From NCBI GenBank assembly GCA_026713205.1, contig JAPOOY010000285.1, positions 1-16,085 on the forward strand: a DNA stretch of 16,085 nt. The letters are read 5' to 3'. The stretch comes from Bdellovibrionales bacterium (lineage in GTDB: Bacteria > Bdellovibrionota > Bdellovibrionia > Bdellovibrionales > UBA1609). This document shows, in pieces, positions 748 through 15,551 of the stretch. Numbering within the stretch: the stretch's first letter is position 1; every line of letters begins with the position of its first letter. Made by a program: the position numbers and the translations under genes. The notes under the pieces were generated by a model. That model had not been told where the DNA came from. It saw nothing but the letters and a program-made list of their open reading frames with translations, and ran no database searches.

Positions 748-958
748 TTATGCCGATCCCGTTTGAATTTTGAGGTTTTCAAAAATGAATAAATACAGGG
801 TTTCCTTCATGAATGTACAGGGTTCAAAAGTGAGTTCGGTTTTGACACGGATGCGGCTGCAAGTCGCTCTATGGCAAAACGCCTGCTTGAGCTTTTGCCC
901 CTTATACACTCATGGAGGGTTCATCTTAATTGCAACAGAAGACTTCAAAACTCAAACC
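748..958. repeat. Palindromic intergenic element, arm type B
   Basis: About 211 bp. The left terminal repeat is at 748-780 (GCCGATCCCGTTTGAATTTT) and a shorter right one at 943-958 (CTTCAAAACTCAAACC). The core at 831-882 carries GAGTTCGG, TTTTGACACGG, then a hairpin TGCGGCT-GCA-AGTCGCT, then GGCAAAACGC. The inverted arms (about 804-830 and 892-923) share the CCTTCATGA...GGG...CAAAAG pattern with the element at 15347-15551, not the GACCCCTATAG arms of the other copies. It ends about 60 bases before the glyS start. Confidence 0.82.
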
Positions 959-2499: not shown

Positions 2500-5179
2500 A
2501 GAACAAAAAAAACCCGCTTTAACAGGGGATTTTAAACAGTTTATTTATCACTTTGGCCCCAAGGGATCAAAGGGTTCTGCAAAGATGAAAGATCTCCTTG
2601 GAGGCAAGGGAGCCAATCTGGCGGAAATGTCCCGCATGGGTTTGCCCGTTCCTCCCGGGTTCACTCTCACCACAGCCCTCTGTGATTTGTTTTATCAAAA
2701 TGGGGAAACTCTCCCTAAAGAGCTTTTTCCGGAAATTGAAAAATCCCTCTCCCAATTGGAAAATCTGATGGAAAAAAGGTTTGGTGATCCGAAAAATCCT
2801 TTACTCTTAAGTGTTCGTTCCGGCGCTCCATTAAGTATGCCGGGGATGATGGATACGGTCTTAAATTTGGGTTTGAATGAAACCACCCTTGAGGGACTGA
2901 TCAAACATTCGGGAAATCCCGGTTTTGCCTGGGACACTTATCGTCGTTTTATTCAAATGTATTCCGATGTGGTGATGGGGATGAATGCCTCTCTCTTGGA
3001 AGTTTACCTGGAGGACTATAAAAATCAAAAGGGTTATCAGTCGGATACGGATATGAAAGTGGAGGATTGGCAAAAAACGGTTCGGCAATTTAAGGAAACC
3101 ATTTTACAGGATACGGGAAAATTATTTCCTGAAGATCCCAAGGAACAACTTTGGTCCGCTATTTCCGCAGTTTTTAAAAGCTGGAATAATCCCCGCGCTA
3201 TTGTGTATCGGCAAATGGGAGGAAACAATCATAAAGCTCAGGGGACGGCCGTGAATGTTCAGGCCATGGTGTTTGGAAACAGGGGAGAGGATTGCGCCAC
3301 AGGCGTGGTATTTACCCGAAACCCCTCCACAGGGGAAAAGAGTCTTTTTGGAGAATTTCTTGTGAATGCGCAGGGGGAAGATGTGGTGGCGGGAGTTCGT
3401 ACTCCTCAACCCATTTTGAATGGCTCGGGAACGGGGGGAGCAAAGGATTTAAGAGCCTTAATGCCGGAGACTTTTGATGAACTGTCTGAACTCTGCCGCT
3501 ATTTGGAAACACATTATAAGTACATTCAGGATATTGAATTTACCGTTGAAAAGAAAAAACTTTGGCTTTTGCAAACCCGGAACGGGAAGTGTTCCGCAAA
3601 AGCTCAATTAAAGATTGCCTGTGATTTAATGGACGAAGGGCTTTTGGATGAAAAACAAACACTGGCCCGTTTGAATCCGACACTCCTGGAAAAACTCCTC
3701 CATCCCTCCATTGATACCAAAGGGGAAAAAACGGTATTGGCTCGGGGGCTTCCCGCCAGTCCCGGAGGGGCTGTGGGCCAGATTGTTTTTTCCAGCGCGG
3801 AGGCCTTGGAACTGAGTCGTCAGGGCCGAAAAGTCATTCTCGTGCGAAGAGAAACCACACCGGAGGATATTAACGGCATGATCAGCTCTCAGGGGATTTT
3901 CACCACTCGTGGTGGAATGACCTCCCATGCCGCCGTGGTGGCAAGAAGTATGGGCAAACCCTGTATTGTGGGCTGTGAAGAGGCGCAAATCAATGAAGAC
4001 ACCAAGGAATTAAAATTTAAAACCGCTGTTTTAAGAGCGGGGGATGTGTTCACCCTGGATGGAACCACAGGAGAGGTTTTAAAGGGAGCCGTGAGCACAA
4101 AGCCCGCGGAATTAAACAAGGATTTTTTCCGGCTTATGGCTCTGGCGGATAAATACAGCCGAATGGAAGTACGGGCTAATGCGGACACTCCCGCTGATGT
4201 GAAAAAATCCAGGGAATTTGGCGCCAAAGGGGTGGGACTTTGCCGGACAGAGCATATGTTCTTTGCGCCGGATCGCTTGAACATTATGAGGCAGATGATT
4301 TTATCTGAGGATAAAGAGGAACGGCAGCCCTTTCTGGATTCACTTTTTTCCATGCAGAAAAAGGATTTTCAGGAACTTTTGGATGTGATGAATGGTTATC
4401 CGGTGACTATTCGTTTGCTGGATCCTCCCCTTCATGAATTTCTTCCCCACACGGATGAGGATATAGAAAACCTCGTAAAAGAGTGTGGCTGGAGTTCAGA
4501 TCGTCTGACGGCAAAGGTGAATCAGTTAAGGGAGACCAATCCCATGTTGGGTCACAGAGGATGCCGTTTGGCTATTACCTGCCCTGAAATTTATCTGATG
4601 CAGACCCGAGCCGTGGCGGCCGCGGCGGCCCAGCTTAAAAAAGAAAAGAAAAACCCCTGTCCGGAAATTATGATTCCTCTGGTGGCTCTGCCTTCCGAAC
4701 TTAAAATTTTAAAATCTCTTATTCAGGTGGAGCTAAAAAAAGCGGAAGAAGAGTTTCAGGTTTCTTTACCCATTCCCGTGGGAGCCATGATAGAGCTTCC
4801 TTCAGCCTGCTTGCAGGCGGGGAAAATAGCGGACGAGGCTCGTTTTTTGAGTTTTGGAACAAATGACCTGACACAAACCACATTGGGTCTTTCCAGAGAC
4901 GATTCCGGAAAATTTCTCGCTTCTTATATTAATCAGGAGTTGATGGAACGGGATCCCTTTCATCAGGTGGATCAAAACAGTGTGGGGGAATTGATGAAAA
5001 TCGCCTTAAAGTCCTGTCACGAAAAACCGGTAAAAATGGGAATTTGCGGTGAACACGGGGGCAATCCGGAAAGTATTCGGTTTTTTCATAAAATAGGACT
5101 TCACTATGTGAGCTGCTCCCCTTACCGTATTCCTGTGGCCCGTTTATCCGCAGCACAAGCCACCTTGGAGGAAAAGTAG
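2486..5179 (+). CDS. ppdK: Pyruvate, phosphate dikinase
   Basis: Interconverts pyruvate, ATP and phosphate with phosphoenolpyruvate, AMP and pyrophosphate in the cytosol. The 897 residues cover three parts. First is an N-terminal ATP-grasp domain (MKDLLGGKGANLAEMSRMG near residue 34, then SVRSGAPLSMPGMMDTVLNL). Next is the swivelling phosphohistidine domain, with TRGGMTSHAAVVARSMGKPC carrying the catalytic His481. Last is the C-terminal PEP/pyruvate TIM barrel (GLCRTEHMFF, HRGCRLAITCPEIY, FGTNDLTQTTLGLSRDD, GICGEHGG). It is slightly longer than the usual ~875-residue enzymes through small insertions. The start lies inside glyS (14-base overlap) with a modest AGG (2475-2477), suggesting coupled translation. 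A glycyl-tRNA synthetase next to ppdK is also, as I recall, known in alphaproteobacteria, but there with the two-subunit synthetase. Confidence 0.97.
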   Translation: MIISKEQKKPALTGDFKQFIYHFGPKGSKGSAKMKDLLGGKGANLAEMSRMGLPVPPGFTLTTALCDLFYQNGETLPKELFPEIEKSLSQLENLMEKRFGDPKNPLLLSVRSGAPLSMPGMMDTVLNLGLNETTLEGLIKHSGNPGFAWDTYRRFIQMYSDVVMGMNASLLEVYLEDYKNQKGYQSDTDMKVEDWQKTVRQFKETILQDTGKLFPEDPKEQLWSAISAVFKSWNNPRAIVYRQMGGNNHKAQGTAVNVQAMVFGNRGEDCATGVVFTRNPSTGEKSLFGEFLVNAQGEDVVAGVRTPQPILNGSGTGGAKDLRALMPETFDELSELCRYLETHYKYIQDIEFTVEKKKLWLLQTRNGKCSAKAQLKIACDLMDEGLLDEKQTLARLNPTLLEKLLHPSIDTKGEKTVLARGLPASPGGAVGQIVFSSAEALELSRQGRKVILVRRETTPEDINGMISSQGIFTTRGGMTSHAAVVARSMGKPCIVGCEEAQINEDTKELKFKTAVLRAGDVFTLDGTTGEVLKGAVSTKPAELNKDFFRLMALADKYSRMEVRANADTPADVKKSREFGAKGVGLCRTEHMFFAPDRLNIMRQMILSEDKEERQPFLDSLFSMQKKDFQELLDVMNGYPVTIRLLDPPLHEFLPHTDEDIENLVKECGWSSDRLTAKVNQLRETNPMLGHRGCRLAITCPEIYLMQTRAVAAAAAQLKKEKKNPCPEIMIPLVALPSELKILKSLIQVELKKAEEEFQVSLPIPVGAMIELPSACLQAGKIADEARFLSFGTNDLTQTTLGLSRDDSGKFLASYINQELMERDPFHQVDQNSVGELMKIALKSCHEKPVKMGICGEHGGNPESIRFFHKIGLHYVSCSPYRIPVARLSAAQATLEEK
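5167..5171 (+). promoter_or_regulatory. Ribosome binding site for smc inside the ppdK end
   Basis: GGAGG lies eight bases before the smc ATG and within the last codons of ppdK. With the stop codon and the next ATG abutting, this implies that ribosomes pass directly from ppdK to smc. Confidence 0.75.
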
Positions 5180-8100: not shown

Positions 8101-8725
8101 ACCTGTTAATTTAGTGGCTTTGAAAGAGCGGGATGAGTTGATGGAGAAAAATGACTTTCTCAGAACACAAAAAGAGGATCTCACAAAATCCCGAACCGAT
8201 CTTTTAAAAGTCATTTCACACATTGATGGAATTTGCGGAAAACGATTTAATGTCATGTTGGAAGAGATCAATCTTCGGTTTTCACGGATTTTCCCTTTGA
8301 TTTTTAATGGAGAAAATGCAGAGGCTCGTTTGATTTTGCATGAAGATCCGGAAAAAGGCGAAACGGGCGTGGATATTCGCATCCGGCCTCCAGGAAAAAA
8401 ACTGCAGAATGTGGCTCTTCTTTCCCGAGGGGAAAAGGCTCTCACTTCCCTCTGTTTAATTTACTCTCTTTTCCTTGTGAAACCATCTCCCTTTTGCGTA
8501 TTGGATGAGATTGACGCTCCTTTAGATGATGCCAATGTGATGCGGTTTCTTTCCGTTATGAGGGAAATGGCAAGCCGAAGCCAAATCATTACCATTACAC
8601 ACAATAAGCACACCATGCGGGCCTGCTCCCAACTCTATGGGGTGACTATGAAAGAGAAAGGCGTTTCTCAAATTGTATCCGTTAATTTGGAAGGCCCTGA
8701 AGTTCCATCACCTCCCGCTCCGTAA
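5180..8725 (+). CDS. smc: Chromosome partition/condensin ATPase SMC
   Basis: Structural maintenance of chromosomes protein. Dimers with kleisin partners compact and segregate the nucleoid. At 1181 residues it has the full family length. The N-terminal head has Walker A GPNGCGKS (residues 31-38, Lys37) and an IFGGT loop. Long Lys/Glu/Gln-rich coiled coils occupy roughly residues 170-500 and 665-1000. The hinge is about residues 510-660. The C-terminal head has the ABC signature and Walker B (VLDEIDAPLDD, D1109/E1110). Oddities: the signature reads LSRGE (residues 1081-1085) where the family norm is LSGGE, and the hinge shows SFVYGGS instead of the common glycine-rich GGSxTGG pattern. The gene starts on the base after the ppdK stop, so it is the third gene of the operon; scpA and scpB are not in the window. 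Confidence 0.96.
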   Translation: MYIRKLEIFGFKSFKNKTVLEFNEGITGVVGPNGCGKSNIVDALLWVMGETAPKHLRSSSFSDVIFGGTNVHPEGDLAEVSLVLAKGNGVFPGSYNHFSELMITRRAFRGGETEYQINKQTCRLKDIHEIFMNTGAGCRGFSIIEQEAVEKLITANPVERRFIIEEVAGITKFKTRRGESIRKLDKVNQNLQRIEDILKTQDQQFQSLNRQAKKATKYRMFKEGIRKRDIELGHRLWNDMSERQGELREQEQSHIVKKQELKDRIKVIQGRMKKQEEEIKQTEAILEKEKLYLSDVSCKIVEREKEIEKRGEAVSIYKNSLEKQKNSRENFQKELEDRRQRIEELDEQRQALKASENRIRKEVQEQETFLSTKKDSHREQSIEKQIQTDRETLHRVAIRSSVIKSRKEILDQTRDKLSREKMLLEEKLRKIFKEKSKRTATLEKSQQMNFDFTKNTEELDKNIQVLEAEKKQSEIKVNRLKQDISALKHKIDNMDQLIYKCENLQKGSEELKSWKPDQFKPLIESLKVEPGFENAAEAALGLFLKSFITPDNYFIEHGISWLKENKKGKCVFISGLPLNDTPLFEREELNKFPSFICSLDEKITFTLEMEPLRILARQTAVVSDLRSAFELKTRYPDLQFVTKEGDFITKESFVYGGSHDKETNTLKMRNERSRWMGEAKANETVLKRAESELDQQTRRLDHFLKEYKQITTNQSQTEVFIAEHKKDLELFKREIFRLTEEREALLQQEQKTGEEDRTLKRELQDIEKEEQRLNRMIQTKETTLSQIQKSNVEYETAEKRVSALKISLVENLNQQNMNEKEKSILMNLMSQSQDREKEFVGNFVSVQKTIREEEERIREVSKELKLFVEEKGQVTAQVREMDSQRGTLQEAVAQAKESVENLNNDQNQMEREEGYFQSEREKIDIQKQNLKEKLFENHQFRLEEDSFIPEWDDISVEELKESIGNLEREIEKTGPVNLVALKERDELMEKNDFLRTQKEDLTKSRTDLLKVISHIDGICGKRFNVMLEEINLRFSRIFPLIFNGENAEARLILHEDPEKGETGVDIRIRPPGKKLQNVALLSRGEKALTSLCLIYSLFLVKPSPFCVLDEIDAPLDDANVMRFLSVMREMASRSQIITITHNKHTMRACSQLYGVTMKEKGVSQIVSVNLEGPEVPSPPAP

Positions 8726-8750
8726 TTATTTTTTAGAGCGATTGTTTTAA

Positions 8751-8825
8751 AAAAGTAAGCTTTCCTCTCTATTTTTAAGTGGGACAAAGAAGTTATGAGC
8801 TTTAATAATGGCTCAGCTTACTTTT
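8751..8825. repeat. Inverted repeat downstream of smc
   Basis: AAAAGTAAGCT (8751-8761) and AGCTTACTTTT (8815-8825) are perfect 11-bp complements. Nested inside is a second short pair, TGAGC (8796-8800) and GCTCA (8811-8815). The fold could slow or end transcription leaving smc, but no T-tract follows directly. It lies just outside the palindromic element, whose left end starts at 8831. Confidence 0.55.
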
Positions 8826-8830
8826 GGACT

Positions 8831-9053
8831 TATACTCCTCCGGTTTGAAATTTTCCGGTTCTTCATAAGAAAAAGTACCTACACCCTTTATAACAGCCTA
8901 TAGGGGTCAAAAATTCAAACATGCGTTTTACCACAGAGCGACTTACAGTCGCAACCGTGTCAAAGCCGAACTCATTTTTGACCCCTATAGTCTGTTATAA
9001 AGGGCTTATGTCTCTTGAATAAAAACAGGAAAATTTCAAACCCGATCGGTATA
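8831..9053 (-). repeat. Complete palindromic MITE-like element, arm type A
   Basis: This is a 223-bp element. Its 26-bp ends, 8831-8856 and 9028-9053, are inverted copies sharing TATAC and GGTTTGAAATTTTCC, with mismatches between them. Inside are inverted type A arms: CCCTTTATAACAG plus CTATAGGGGTCAAAAAT at 8884-8914, and their complement at 8974-9003. The centre (about 8920-8973), read on the minus strand, gives GAGTTCGGCTTTGACACGG followed by hairpin TGCGACT-GTA-AGTCGCT and CTGTGG. It has no ORF of its own, so it would be non-autonomous if mobile. It lies between the convergent smc and HEAT-nuclease genes. The strand is assigned by core orientation. Confidence 0.88.
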
Positions 9054-9062
9054 AAGAGTATA

Positions 9063-10955
9063 TTATTCAACAGGTTCAATTTCTTTTCTCTCCAATTCTT
9101 CCCACAGCTTCTTCAAAGCTTCAGGGTTTATTTTTCTGTCTTTCCAGTTTGGGTATAGAGAGTAAAAGGGAAGATAAGGCAATGAGGGGTTTTTTTCTTC
9201 AGAATGTTTTACTCTCCAAACAGTCCATTTTTCATTTTCAAGATCTCGCTGTCTCTCTCTATCTTTTTTTTGTCTTTCTGTTTTATCATGATAAGGTCCG
9301 TCACATTCAATAAATAGCATGCTCTCCTTTCTCTCCTTTGACATAATGGTTTTATCACTGCTGACTATAGCAAGATCAATTCGGTAATCTTTTCCTTTCT
9401 CTGAATTTGTATGAACATATTGGGGCAGAACAATATAACCTTCTTCATGTATTTTTAGAAAAACCTCCACTTCAAACCAACTTTCAAATGGGGGCGGCAC
9501 TTTATTAGCCGGTTGGCTGTTTGGGTTGTCATATGTTAATCCTTTACCTGTTATTTGATATTCTCTAATTCTTTTTCTCAGTTCTCCGGCTTTTGATTCT
9601 TGAATTTCATAGTAACTTTTCAAAGCGATTTTTCCTTTTCCATATAAAGCTTTAAAAGCTTGTCGGGCCGCCTTGCGAACATTTTGATCTTTATCATACA
9701 AAGCTCTTGTCAATCGTTTAATGATAGTGGTTTTTCTTTCTTTTACGATATGAGTTGATAAGTGAAAAACATTTCTGCTAAAAGAATTTGTGAGTGTTTC
9801 CTTTAAAGCGGAAATAGCTTCTTTTTCTACTTCAGAATCGCTATTGGAGGAAATAATTTCAATTAAGGTATCAATAACCATAGCATATACGATATTGATT
9901 TTAACCATAGCCTTAATAGCCGCTTTTTGGACAAGAGGTTCAGGATCATGCTGTGCTTTTCTAATTAAAGTTTGAAGGATATGAAGCCTTATATCATTAG
10001 GAGTATTAGAATCGTCAAATATAATATTTTTTATGGGATATATAAATAAACTATAAAAAGTGCTTCCGTATCCTTTGTAAATTTTTTTTAAAGAATTTGG
10101 ATTTAATATTTCCAGTATGTTTCCCAGCGTTTTTACTGTGGCTGACCTTATTTCAGGATTCGGATCATTTAATCCTTCTCCCAAAAGCTGAATAGTTAGT
10201 GCATCTTTTGGATTTCTTTTTCTCAAAATTTTGATAATGTGTTTCTTTTCTTCGGAAGAAATTCCTTTTCCAATTTTTGCCGCTAACTTTCTGGCTGTTT
10301 TAATGGTAATATTTTTGGCTATATCTTCAAAAAAAGAGTATATTTCATTTCTTATATCAGCTTGTTTTTCACTATTAAAAAGCTCTAAACTATCAACTAA
10401 AATTCTTTGAGTTTTACGGTCTTTTGGTTTTGTCTCTCTGATTGATTTGACCAGATTTTGTTTTATTAAATTAAATTCTTCCGTTTCAAACTCTTCTGTT
10501 TCAGATAAAGTTTCACCCAATAGTCTATGCAATCTATACATTTTTGGTTTGCTTTGTCCAAGAGCGATAAAAAGGGCTTGAACCAAAGCCATCTGTATAT
10601 GGGAACTGTTTGTTCCGGCTTCTCCAATAACAAGAGCTAAATTTTTCTTTATCTCAACATTTGCCTCTTCAGCAAAGATTTGTTTAGCTACATTGGATTG
10701 TATTTTGGAAGGAGTTTTTTTCCAGACTTCACTCATTATCTCTTTAGAGGAAGACTCTCTCATCTGTTCTACATAGGAGGCTGCTGAGTCTGCTTCTGTG
10801 CTTTGCCCTGAAAAAGCCTGCCAACAATTTTTTATCCAATTTCCTATCTCAGATTGTGAACTGGCAGTGATTGGATATAAGAGAAAACAGCATAGGAGTA
10901 AATAAAATTTACCAATTATTATTTTTTTTATTGTTCTGCTCAGTAAATACATCAT
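9063..10955 (-). CDS. Exported or membrane-anchored HEAT-like protein with C-terminal PD-(D/E)XK nuclease domain
   Basis: 630 residues. Residues 1-31 hold a basic start, a hydrophobic core (IIIGKFYLLLCCFLLYPI) and a signal-peptidase-like TASSQS site, so the protein is predicted to be exported or N-terminally anchored. Residues ~40-440 are helical with HEAT-like repeats, clearest near 255-285, 322-355 and 405-437 (for example DPNPEIRSATVKTLGNI and DKDQNVRKAARQAFKAL). Residues ~488-590 resemble the Vsr-like REase_MTES_1575/DUF559 nucleases: E495, D527 in YRIDLAIV, E550 and D552 in FIECDGPYH, then DRERQRDLENEKWTVWRVKHS. The catalytic-type residues look intact. It starts 3 bases after the ParD-like gene with no strong ribosome site, so it is probably translationally coupled. 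By eye the gene is more AT-rich than the core genes. The nuclease fold is well supported; the biological role is unknown. Confidence 0.85.
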   Translation of the reverse strand: MMYLLSRTIKKIIIGKFYLLLCCFLLYPITASSQSEIGNWIKNCWQAFSGQSTEADSAASYVEQMRESSSKEIMSEVWKKTPSKIQSNVAKQIFAEEANVEIKKNLALVIGEAGTNSSHIQMALVQALFIALGQSKPKMYRLHRLLGETLSETEEFETEEFNLIKQNLVKSIRETKPKDRKTQRILVDSLELFNSEKQADIRNEIYSFFEDIAKNITIKTARKLAAKIGKGISSEEKKHIIKILRKRNPKDALTIQLLGEGLNDPNPEIRSATVKTLGNILEILNPNSLKKIYKGYGSTFYSLFIYPIKNIIFDDSNTPNDIRLHILQTLIRKAQHDPEPLVQKAAIKAMVKINIVYAMVIDTLIEIISSNSDSEVEKEAISALKETLTNSFSRNVFHLSTHIVKERKTTIIKRLTRALYDKDQNVRKAARQAFKALYGKGKIALKSYYEIQESKAGELRKRIREYQITGKGLTYDNPNSQPANKVPPPFESWFEVEVFLKIHEEGYIVLPQYVHTNSEKGKDYRIDLAIVSSDKTIMSKERKESMLFIECDGPYHDKTERQKKDRERQRDLENEKWTVWRVKHSEEKNPSLPYLPFYSLYPNWKDRKINPEALKKLWEELERKEIEPVE

Positions 10956-12446: not shown

Positions 12447-13062
12447 GATTTTACCCTCCTTAAAGTGTATCCTTTAGTGACATTGATTCAATTTGAGATT
12501 CCTGTTTGTAAAAAAAATTTTATTAAAGATCATAAGGAATTTATAACTTGAATTTAAAGAAAAAAGCAATTGGGAAAAAAACTGTTTTATACACACCCTG
12601 GTTGAGTTTTAAATTTTTCAGATGAAAGGCTGATTTTTGTTTTATGCCGATCCGGTTTGAATTTTGAGGGATTATATACTTAACGCCGCATTTAAGAAAA
12701 TGGGGGCTTATACCAATCGTGTTTGAGTTTTGAAATTTAAAAAAGAGTGTATTCCTCAAGAGAAAATTTCCATGTTAAGATCGGATTGAAATATATTAAT
12801 TGTGTTTGAGTCTTGAGGTTTTCCAGTGGAAAAATGTTATTCACAGAGGATTCTCGGTGATTCCCAAAATGAGACACTTTCAGGACCTTTTATCTGTAAA
12901 AAAATCTCTTTTATCTATTAGAAAAGGATTTTTCGTTATTTGAGAAATACTTTTGTCCAGTTATTTATTAAAAAATTCCTTTTAAAATCCATTCCTGGAA
13001 AATTCTTTTTGGTTTTAAAGAAATTTTCCGTTATTGCAAAGAGAAGATGATATACTTCCAGT
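12447..13062. repeat. Gene-free stretch with four degenerate, same-direction element ends
   Basis: Four copies of the element's left-terminal motif point the same way: about 12596-12620 (GGTTGAGTTTTAAATTTTTC), 12643-12670 (TATGCCGATCCGGTTTGAAT), 12709-12740 (TATACCAATCGTGTTTGAGT) and 12793-12824 (TGTGTTTGAGTCTTGAGGTT). They are about 55-80 bases apart and have no cores or matching right ends. The rest of the interval (12825-13062) is AT-rich with no gene visible. It ends with TATACT (13051-13056) close to the next start. Confidence 0.55.
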
Positions 13063-13493: not shown

Positions 13494-13765
13494 TATACCG
13501 ATCGTCTTTGAAAATTTCCGGTTTTTATTTAAGAGACATAAGCCCTTTATAACAGATTCCAGGGGTCAAAAATGAGCACGAATTTGACACAGATGTGACA
13601 GGTGCAGACCCCAAGAGTGATGAAATGTCAAAAATGAGTTCGGCTTTGACACAGATGCGACTGTAAGTCGCACTAAAGCAAAACGCAGGGCTGAATTGGC
13701 TGTTATAAAGGGTGTAAGTATTTTTTCTTATGAAGAGCCGGAAAATTTCAAATCGGAGGAGTATA
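13494..13765 (+). repeat. Complete palindromic MITE-like element, arm type A, with internal duplication
   Basis: 272 bp, in the opposite orientation to the copy at 8831-9053. The left end is TATACCGATCGTCTTTGAAA and the right end TTTCAAATCGGAGGAGTATA. Arms are AAGCCCTTTATAACAG (left) and GTTATAAAGGGTGTAAG (right). The core at 13627-13690 keeps GAGTTCGGCTTTGACACAGA and hairpin TGCGACT-GTA-AGTCGCA. It is longer than the other full copy because part of the core occurs twice (13565-13599 and 13627-13661, 30 of 35 positions equal). Just upstream, TATACTCCTC at 13473-13482 looks like another solo element end. Confidence 0.87.
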
Positions 13766-15346: not shown

Positions 15347-15551
15347 ATACGGATCGGGTTTGAATTTTGAGGTTTTTTAGAGGTAAGATGTTCCTTCATG
15401 AGCTTAAAGGGTTTAAAAGTGAGTTCGGCTTTGACACAAATGCAACTGTAAGTCGTTCTGTGGCAAAACGCATGTGTGAACTTTTGAACCCTTTAAGCTC
15501 ATGAAGGAAGAAGTTATACATTCAATTTTGAAAATTTCAAAATTCAAACCA
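15347..15551 (+). repeat. Palindromic intergenic element, arm type B, next to the serA start
   Basis: About 205 bp. The left end is ATACGGATCGGGTTTGAATT and the right end is TTTCAAAATTCAAACC. The type B arms 15391-15419 and 15481-15509 are inverted copies matching at 28 of 29 positions (TTCCTTCATGAGCTTAAAGG). The 61-base loop holds the conserved core: GAGTTCGGCTTTGACACAAA, a hairpin TGCAACT-GTA-AGTCGTT with mismatches, and GGCAAAACGCATG. The element ends about 20 bases before the serA ATG, so a transcript starting upstream would carry the hairpin in its leader. Confidence 0.85.

Follow-up and report, generated by a model that had tools for sequence, protein, structure and literature searches.

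A dispersed palindromic repeat family of Bdellovibrionales with a conserved core and copy-specific matched arms

The Rickettsia palindromic elements (RPEs) are described, in passages of PMC10969869, as units of about 150 bp that occur in many copies and sit in frame within unrelated genes. The repeat that we report here resembles RPEs, as far as those passages describe them, in its size, its high copy number and its in-frame insertion (in our case into a fadJ-like gene and into hypF), but it belongs to another host group, and here it is the apex that is conserved while the arms are copy-specific. Like bacterial MITEs, the element is short and non-autonomous and has TA-ended terminal inverted repeats in the genome in which we found it; unlike them, its terminal repeats are not common to the family, and searches for Y1 and DDE_3 genes found no parent transposase. 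With the REP, BIME and REPIN sequences that are linked to RAYT (Y1) transposases it shares the habit of a high-copy extragenic palindrome, although it is larger and Y1 is absent in three heavy carriers. REPs, according to passages of PMC3733652, have conserved tagged ends, whereas our element has a conserved apex and a variable stem.

Two further systems bear on the arms. Template switching can, according to passages of PMC8794818 and PMC8604942, give rise to hairpins and mirrored changes, and the quasipalindromes that are corrected in this manner share mirrored substitutions and spacer inversion with our element; the difference is that here we are dealing with a dispersed family that has a conserved spacer. 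Long perfect inverted repeats inside reading frames are reported from the mitochondria of Nematomorpha (passages of PMC6649704) and are alike in being coding palindromes, but both arms there encode conserved protein and the same passages make no mention of a common core. In-frame palindromic insertion in protein genes, known from Rickettsia, is now seen in another bacterial group.

Copies in the window and the fold of the core

The window, by which we mean the whole 16,085-nucleotide stretch of DNA that was analyzed, is contig C28 of a 302-contig genome of 1,506,820 bases that is 85% complete (G000 below). A first-pass annotation had placed repeats at 748-958, 8831-9053, 13494-13765 and 15347-15551, a copy cut by the window edge at 1-99, and a core hairpin with the flanking pairs CACAG/CTGTG and TTTG/CAAA. 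All of these are present, the edge copy extending to position 134 (Table 1), and the observation of repeats in the window is confirmed; the interpretation that was placed on them is partly supported. The copies at 748-958 and 15347-15551 have the core and the ends of 8830-9054 but different arms. Throughout, the sense strand was taken as the one reading TGAGTTCGG...ACGCATGT.

Table 1. Copies of the repeat in the window and parts of the copy at 8829-9055
Feature	Position	Strand	Basis and remarks
Complete copy	8829..9055	-	TA-ended terminal repeats, inner arms and core; sense strand is -; covariance-model match 8890-8998, E 2.3e-19
Left imperfect terminal inverted repeat, with TATAC	8830..8863		Inverted-repeat search and alignment of copies; 82% complementary to 9021-9054 (inverted-repeat search)
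Right imperfect terminal inverted repeat, with GGTATA	9021..9054		Inverted-repeat search and alignment of copies
Inner arm, one side	8877..8914		Mirrored changes between copies; 89% complementary to 8974-9011 (inverted-repeat search)
Inner arm, other side	8974..9011		Pairs with 8877..8914
Conserved core, common to other genera (P2, P3, P4 and bulges)	8909..8979	-	Comparison of copies
Core 5' conserved motif, sense TGAGTTCGG	8966..8974	-	
Strongly conserved 3' bulge, sense ACGCATGT	8919..8926	-	
Apical hairpin, sense GCGACT-GTA-AGTCGC, differs among copies	8938..8952	-	
Copy with decayed inner arms	748..958	+	Covariance-model match 806-916, E 1.3e-15; 21 of 27 inner-arm pairs remain
Complete copy with other inner arms	15347..15551	+	Covariance-model match 15395-15505, E 1.9e-19
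Rearranged copy, inner arms lost, core partly duplicated	13494..13765	+	Core 13631-13700, the fourth in the window, recovered by profile search, E 3e-14
Copy truncated by contig edge	1..134		83% match to 8795-8928, inverted
Coreless relic of terminal repeat	12634..12683		Repeat comparison

The defining unit of the family is a core of about 60 nt on one strand and not the terminal repeat. Read inward, an element consists of TA-ended terminal repeats (in some genomes only), the arms, a bulge, the core helices and the apical hairpin. On the sense strand the core folds with two conserved bulges: the outermost is the 3-nt YGA, inside which lies the helix GUUCGG/YYGARY, and the 3' side of the inner core helix UUUG/CAAA carries the strongly conserved bulge ACGCAUGU. 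The apical hairpin varies among copies. Covariation was measured in 44 copies from seven genomes, a script having picked 49 diverse copies (E<=1e-13, core 69-71 nt) from which five with arms that pair poorly or not at all were excluded, an exclusion that flatters the pairing percentage. These copies contain 403 two-sided cells, where shuffles gave 145 (sd 11) and slid controls 95-193. Counted by pairs the result is less striking, 29 having a two-sided change versus 26.0 expected (equalled in 14 of 500 shuffles). In helix P2, variation nearly always preserves a standard pair. A k-turn reading of the core was dropped after inspection by eye.

Two minor observations may be recorded here. Positions 9063-10955 of the window encode a HEAT-repeat protein with an MTES_1575-type nuclease-like domain (Pfam) and, judged by eye, a signal peptide. 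At four loci of G001 (L095, L114, L116 and L052) cores stand in direct tandem, approximately 102-132 bp apart.

Family distribution and insertion sites

The earlier claim of a dispersed, high-copy family of nested palindromes with a conserved core is upheld within the genome and beyond it. Of 297 first-look candidates for 8822-9060 in a blastn search of G000, 40 were scored, and these yielded 85 matches; the best match after the query itself had an E of 6e-97, and identity is about 85-95% at the 39 best other places. With the covariance model R1 all 150 scored candidates in G000 matched at E<=1e-4 (from 1,192 first-look candidates), some of them partial or cut by contig ends, and further copies may exist; the density is approximately one copy per 10 kb. 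Within the order R1 (E<=1e-3) detects the element in 29 of 140 genomes. In a phylum search with strict filters and at most 10 candidates scored per genome, 28 of 368 genomes were positive at E<=1e-5, all 28 being G000 itself or of the same genus, family or order. G003, a species of the window's own genus, has no R1 match. The core family spans several families of one order. In distant kin the motif is kept and the apical hairpin is different, with the core down to 28 nt in G031. The core pattern was also found in at least 73 stretches of named genomes, which among the matches listed all come from six bins titled Bdellovibrionales, Bdellovibrionaceae or Oligoflexia; sequence-identical loci equate G001 with CAR1_bin_21, G002 with RHO2_bin_34 and G016 with RHO3_bin_33. 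Most of the assemblies are drafts, and at contig ends inside palindromes, of which G020 has several, assembly can mimic an arm. In G020, contigs C140, C80, C147, C6 and C320 end within or beside palindromes, so that draft genomes probably contain more copies than are counted.

The annotation had known of no named family with this core, and at the settings used we likewise found no catalogued match in Rfam, NCBIfam, plasmids, phages or viral contigs. Rfam gave no match over threshold in the window (for 8700-9100, five microRNA-precursor models and PYLIS_3 appeared, all under the gathering threshold), and identity with an Rfam family was rejected on this ground. Plasmids, phages and viral contigs gave no match to the element at the sensitivity used, and a phage, plasmid or viral origin was set aside. 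NCBIfam holds RPE models; two peptides that the element inserts into proteins had no match in NCBIfam. In open-licence PMC literature the repeat is not described among the matches listed.

According to the first-pass annotation the elements lie only between genes. This is so within the window but not for the family: 134 of 143 copies tested are outside predicted ORFs and 9 are inside an ORF of >=90 aa, at least one of the latter in a real gene (fadJ-like), and hypF of another genome is a further case. The fadJ-like case is a 771-aa ORF of G016 whose two enzyme domains are separated by a copy that keeps the reading frame; at this site G001 and G003 have a short linker instead of the element. 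In G120 a 162-bp copy is in frame within hypF. The HypF of G007 matches the G120 protein in two parts, residues 1-371 and 428-745 (identities 38% and 31%), and these parts adjoin in G007 without an intervening base. Given the short linkers at the fadJ-like site and the gapless HypF relative, the whole unit, core and both arms included, appears to be additional to these genes. We found no clean strain-level empty site, the syntenic regions of G016 and G132 being too rearranged. In a separate observation, the fadJ-like linker at L171 of G133 holds a different palindromic repeat; this linker could be either a common hot spot or simply a tolerant linker in G016 and G133.

Matched arms and their possible origin

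Arms were compared in 75 elements of G120, G017, G020 and G126 picked by core motif plus a minimum arm, a selection from which decayed kin copies are consequently absent. In the 67 elements left after removal of 8 at contig ends the arms measure 18-93 bp (the 133-bp arm of L263, at the edge of a contig, could be an artefact of assembly and was discarded in favor of the 93-bp maximum). The arm percentages are conditional because arm ends were defined by complementarity itself; the identical extension rule applied at 5,000 random places of these loci gave arms of <=6 bp in 99%. On the sense strand, the inner 15 pairs beside the core comprise 873 Watson-Crick, 90 G.T, 1 A.C and 41 other pairs. 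More than 15 bp from the core there are 2,472 Watson-Crick pairs and only 28 mismatches in 2,500 pairs (30 in 2,915 with all 75 elements), and arms of 85-93 bp carry 0-1 mismatch. Between copies, ungapped identity beyond 15 bp is 0.26-0.37, and gapped comparison reveals a recognizable relationship of arms in G020, a slight one in G017 and G120 and none in G126. A copy's own second arm is its closest relative in 50 of 52 copies with arms >=45 bp. Outer arms were used as 30 queries, 26 being distinct, against a 400-kb sample (10.5%) of G120; none had a third copy there, the best match outside elements being 17 nt at E 0.002, where 2-3 matches would be predicted were all arms derived from the genome. 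Capture of arms from elsewhere in the genome was rejected on this comparison, which has low power. Apparent third arm copies in G020 were read as one locus split by a contig break plus a weak 28-nt match.

Complementary arms also show mirrored changes. In the young G000 subfamily (30 copies) the inner arm has 18 mirrored and 16 one-sided changes over 926 cells, the one-sided ones comprising 2 A.C, 5 G.T and 9 other, as compared with 0 mirrored and 26 one-sided changes over 342 cells in an outer control region of the same copies. As several mirrored changes are common to more than one copy, the mirrored events are fewer than the cells, and the counts are not independent given that the copies are related. 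One-sided mismatches and decayed copies do exist, including in the window. The mirrored changes could equally stem from selection on structure. A conserved inner part combined with copy-specific matched arms points to an unusual mode of copying or maintenance of a mobile element.

On balance, we lean towards the possibility that the repeat is a non-autonomous mobile palindrome of Bdellovibrionales with snap-back arms and a strand-specific core, a subfamily of which uses a TA-ended cassette in G000. A putative enzyme would recognize the core in its folded single-strand form; our reasoning for strand-specific recognition is the G.T bias, which comes from related copies. The second arm would be a product of self-templated (snap-back, template-switch) DNA synthesis, with the result that arms would match at birth and later differences would tend to be overwritten. 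The G000 subfamily may then have been captured by the TA-ended terminal-repeat cassette and multiplied with it. We entertain more tentatively the idea of a new class of element, in which inheritance is confined to the folded core, long arms are formed afresh by each insertion and copies can land in one another's apical loops; arms made anew by snap-back at insertion would give sister copies a common core and unrelated palindromic arms. If arms are indeed remade at insertion, this would be a mobile element that inherits its fold and not its ends. The family offers a natural experiment on the origin and maintenance of matched bacterial palindromes, in which mismatches between paired arms could act as clocks.

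An unlikely but still serious alternative is that the repeat is a functional structured RNA (a riboregulator, RNase III substrate or ribozyme-like RNA) that has spread by copying to many loci and that selection on RNA pairing keeps the arms complementary. Consistent with this idea are the sense-strand bias of 84 G.T versus 36 A.C in the arms of 120 copies, the excess of G.T over A.C (90 to 1) among kin inner pairs and the almost always pair-preserving variation of P2. However: (i) the orientation of copies relative to adjoining genes is mixed; (ii) RNA pairing should not demand complementarity as strict as 0-1 mismatch over arms of 85-93 bp; (iii) the bias is weaker in the outer arms (15 G.T, 5 A.C and 8 other) and (iv) there is no Rfam match over threshold.

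Terminal cassette and nested copies

The G000 subfamily travels in a TA-ended terminal-repeat cassette, which is best seen as a second, conventional layer. Most of the ends are common to 30 aligned G000 copies; the 71 ends that were counted begin with TA because the search pattern required it. In one case, L020, a copy is nested within an older core with TA at the junction, which fits TA duplication. Judged by eye, six loci each of G001 and G004 have no TA-ended terminal repeats, so that terminal inverted repeats are common to the G000 subfamily but not to all copies. The label 'MITE-like' given in the first-pass annotation thus suits the outer cassette of G000 and some kin but not the family as a whole. 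It is rather improbable that the element is an ordinary IS-derived MITE whose outer terminal repeats are moved by a transposase at TA with the core and arms as passengers: the common ends and L020 agree with it, but the ends are absent from the G001 and G004 loci, the core family occurs across the order in forms without TA ends and no DDE_3 gene was found in 7 genomes. For the family as a whole this explanation is already insufficient.

Candidate enzymes were also considered. Mobilization by an IS630-type (DDE_3) transposase was set aside, as its gene was not found in those 7 genomes. A search for Y1, which left out G016, G120 and G017, gave no match in the heavy carriers G001, G002 and G004, one match at a contig edge in G000 and matches in the light carriers G007, G008, G010, G015, G027, G031 and G032; Y1/RAYT mobilization was rejected given its absence from the three heavy carriers. 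SbcD cuts long palindromes. It scored over the cut-off in 11 of 138 genomes of the order, all in family f10 and none an element genome (f10 is without an element match at R1 E<=1e-3), with weak matches under the cut-off in G005, G032 and G101. As 127 of the 138 genomes have no SbcD over the cut-off, its absence from element genomes says little and is weak support, the coverage of all 29 element genomes not being evident from the list.

Three copies of G120 (L287, L288 and L289, of which the first two coincide with L223 and L226) have another element inside their apical loop, with an identical junction in all three, and four relatives (L290-L293) have a plain hairpin at that position. The inner core runs in the same direction as the outer core in L287 and in the opposite direction in L288 and L289. 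Nine substitutions and one indel separate the inner arms of L287 from those of L288, each of them mirrored, and a single one-sided change lies beside the core. Across L287-L289 the inner arms are 68-75% identical, while the outer arms score no better than shuffled sequence. If the three go back to one nesting event, the outer arms would have been replaced on moving while the inner arms changed where they stood. The alternative, that one site received three insertions independently, is less likely given the shared junction.

These composites also bear on the possibility, which we consider more improbable again, that old palindromes are kept perfect in place by template switching with no movement now, their outer arms drifting into the flank. 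Both the mirrored changes and the change of inner core direction between L287 and L288/L289, as spacer inversion would give, are in keeping with this idea, but the unit is absent from the HypF relative of G007, copies about 85-95% identical occur at 39 further places in G000 and the three composites are at different sites. A role as bidirectional transcription terminators with a common loop is very improbable and was rejected: some copies in G017 and G120 do lie within 30 bp of a gene end, but none of 67 copies has >=5 T in the 8 bases past the 3' arm, as 31 of 200 background windows do, an antisense T-run occurs in 5 of 67 and copies lie inside open genes.

At L063, L086, L100 and L106 of G016, a CCCGCGAAAGCGGG-type palindromic repeat breaks into or takes the place of either the apical hairpin or the core's 3' side, and different palindromes thus stack concentrically at these loci.
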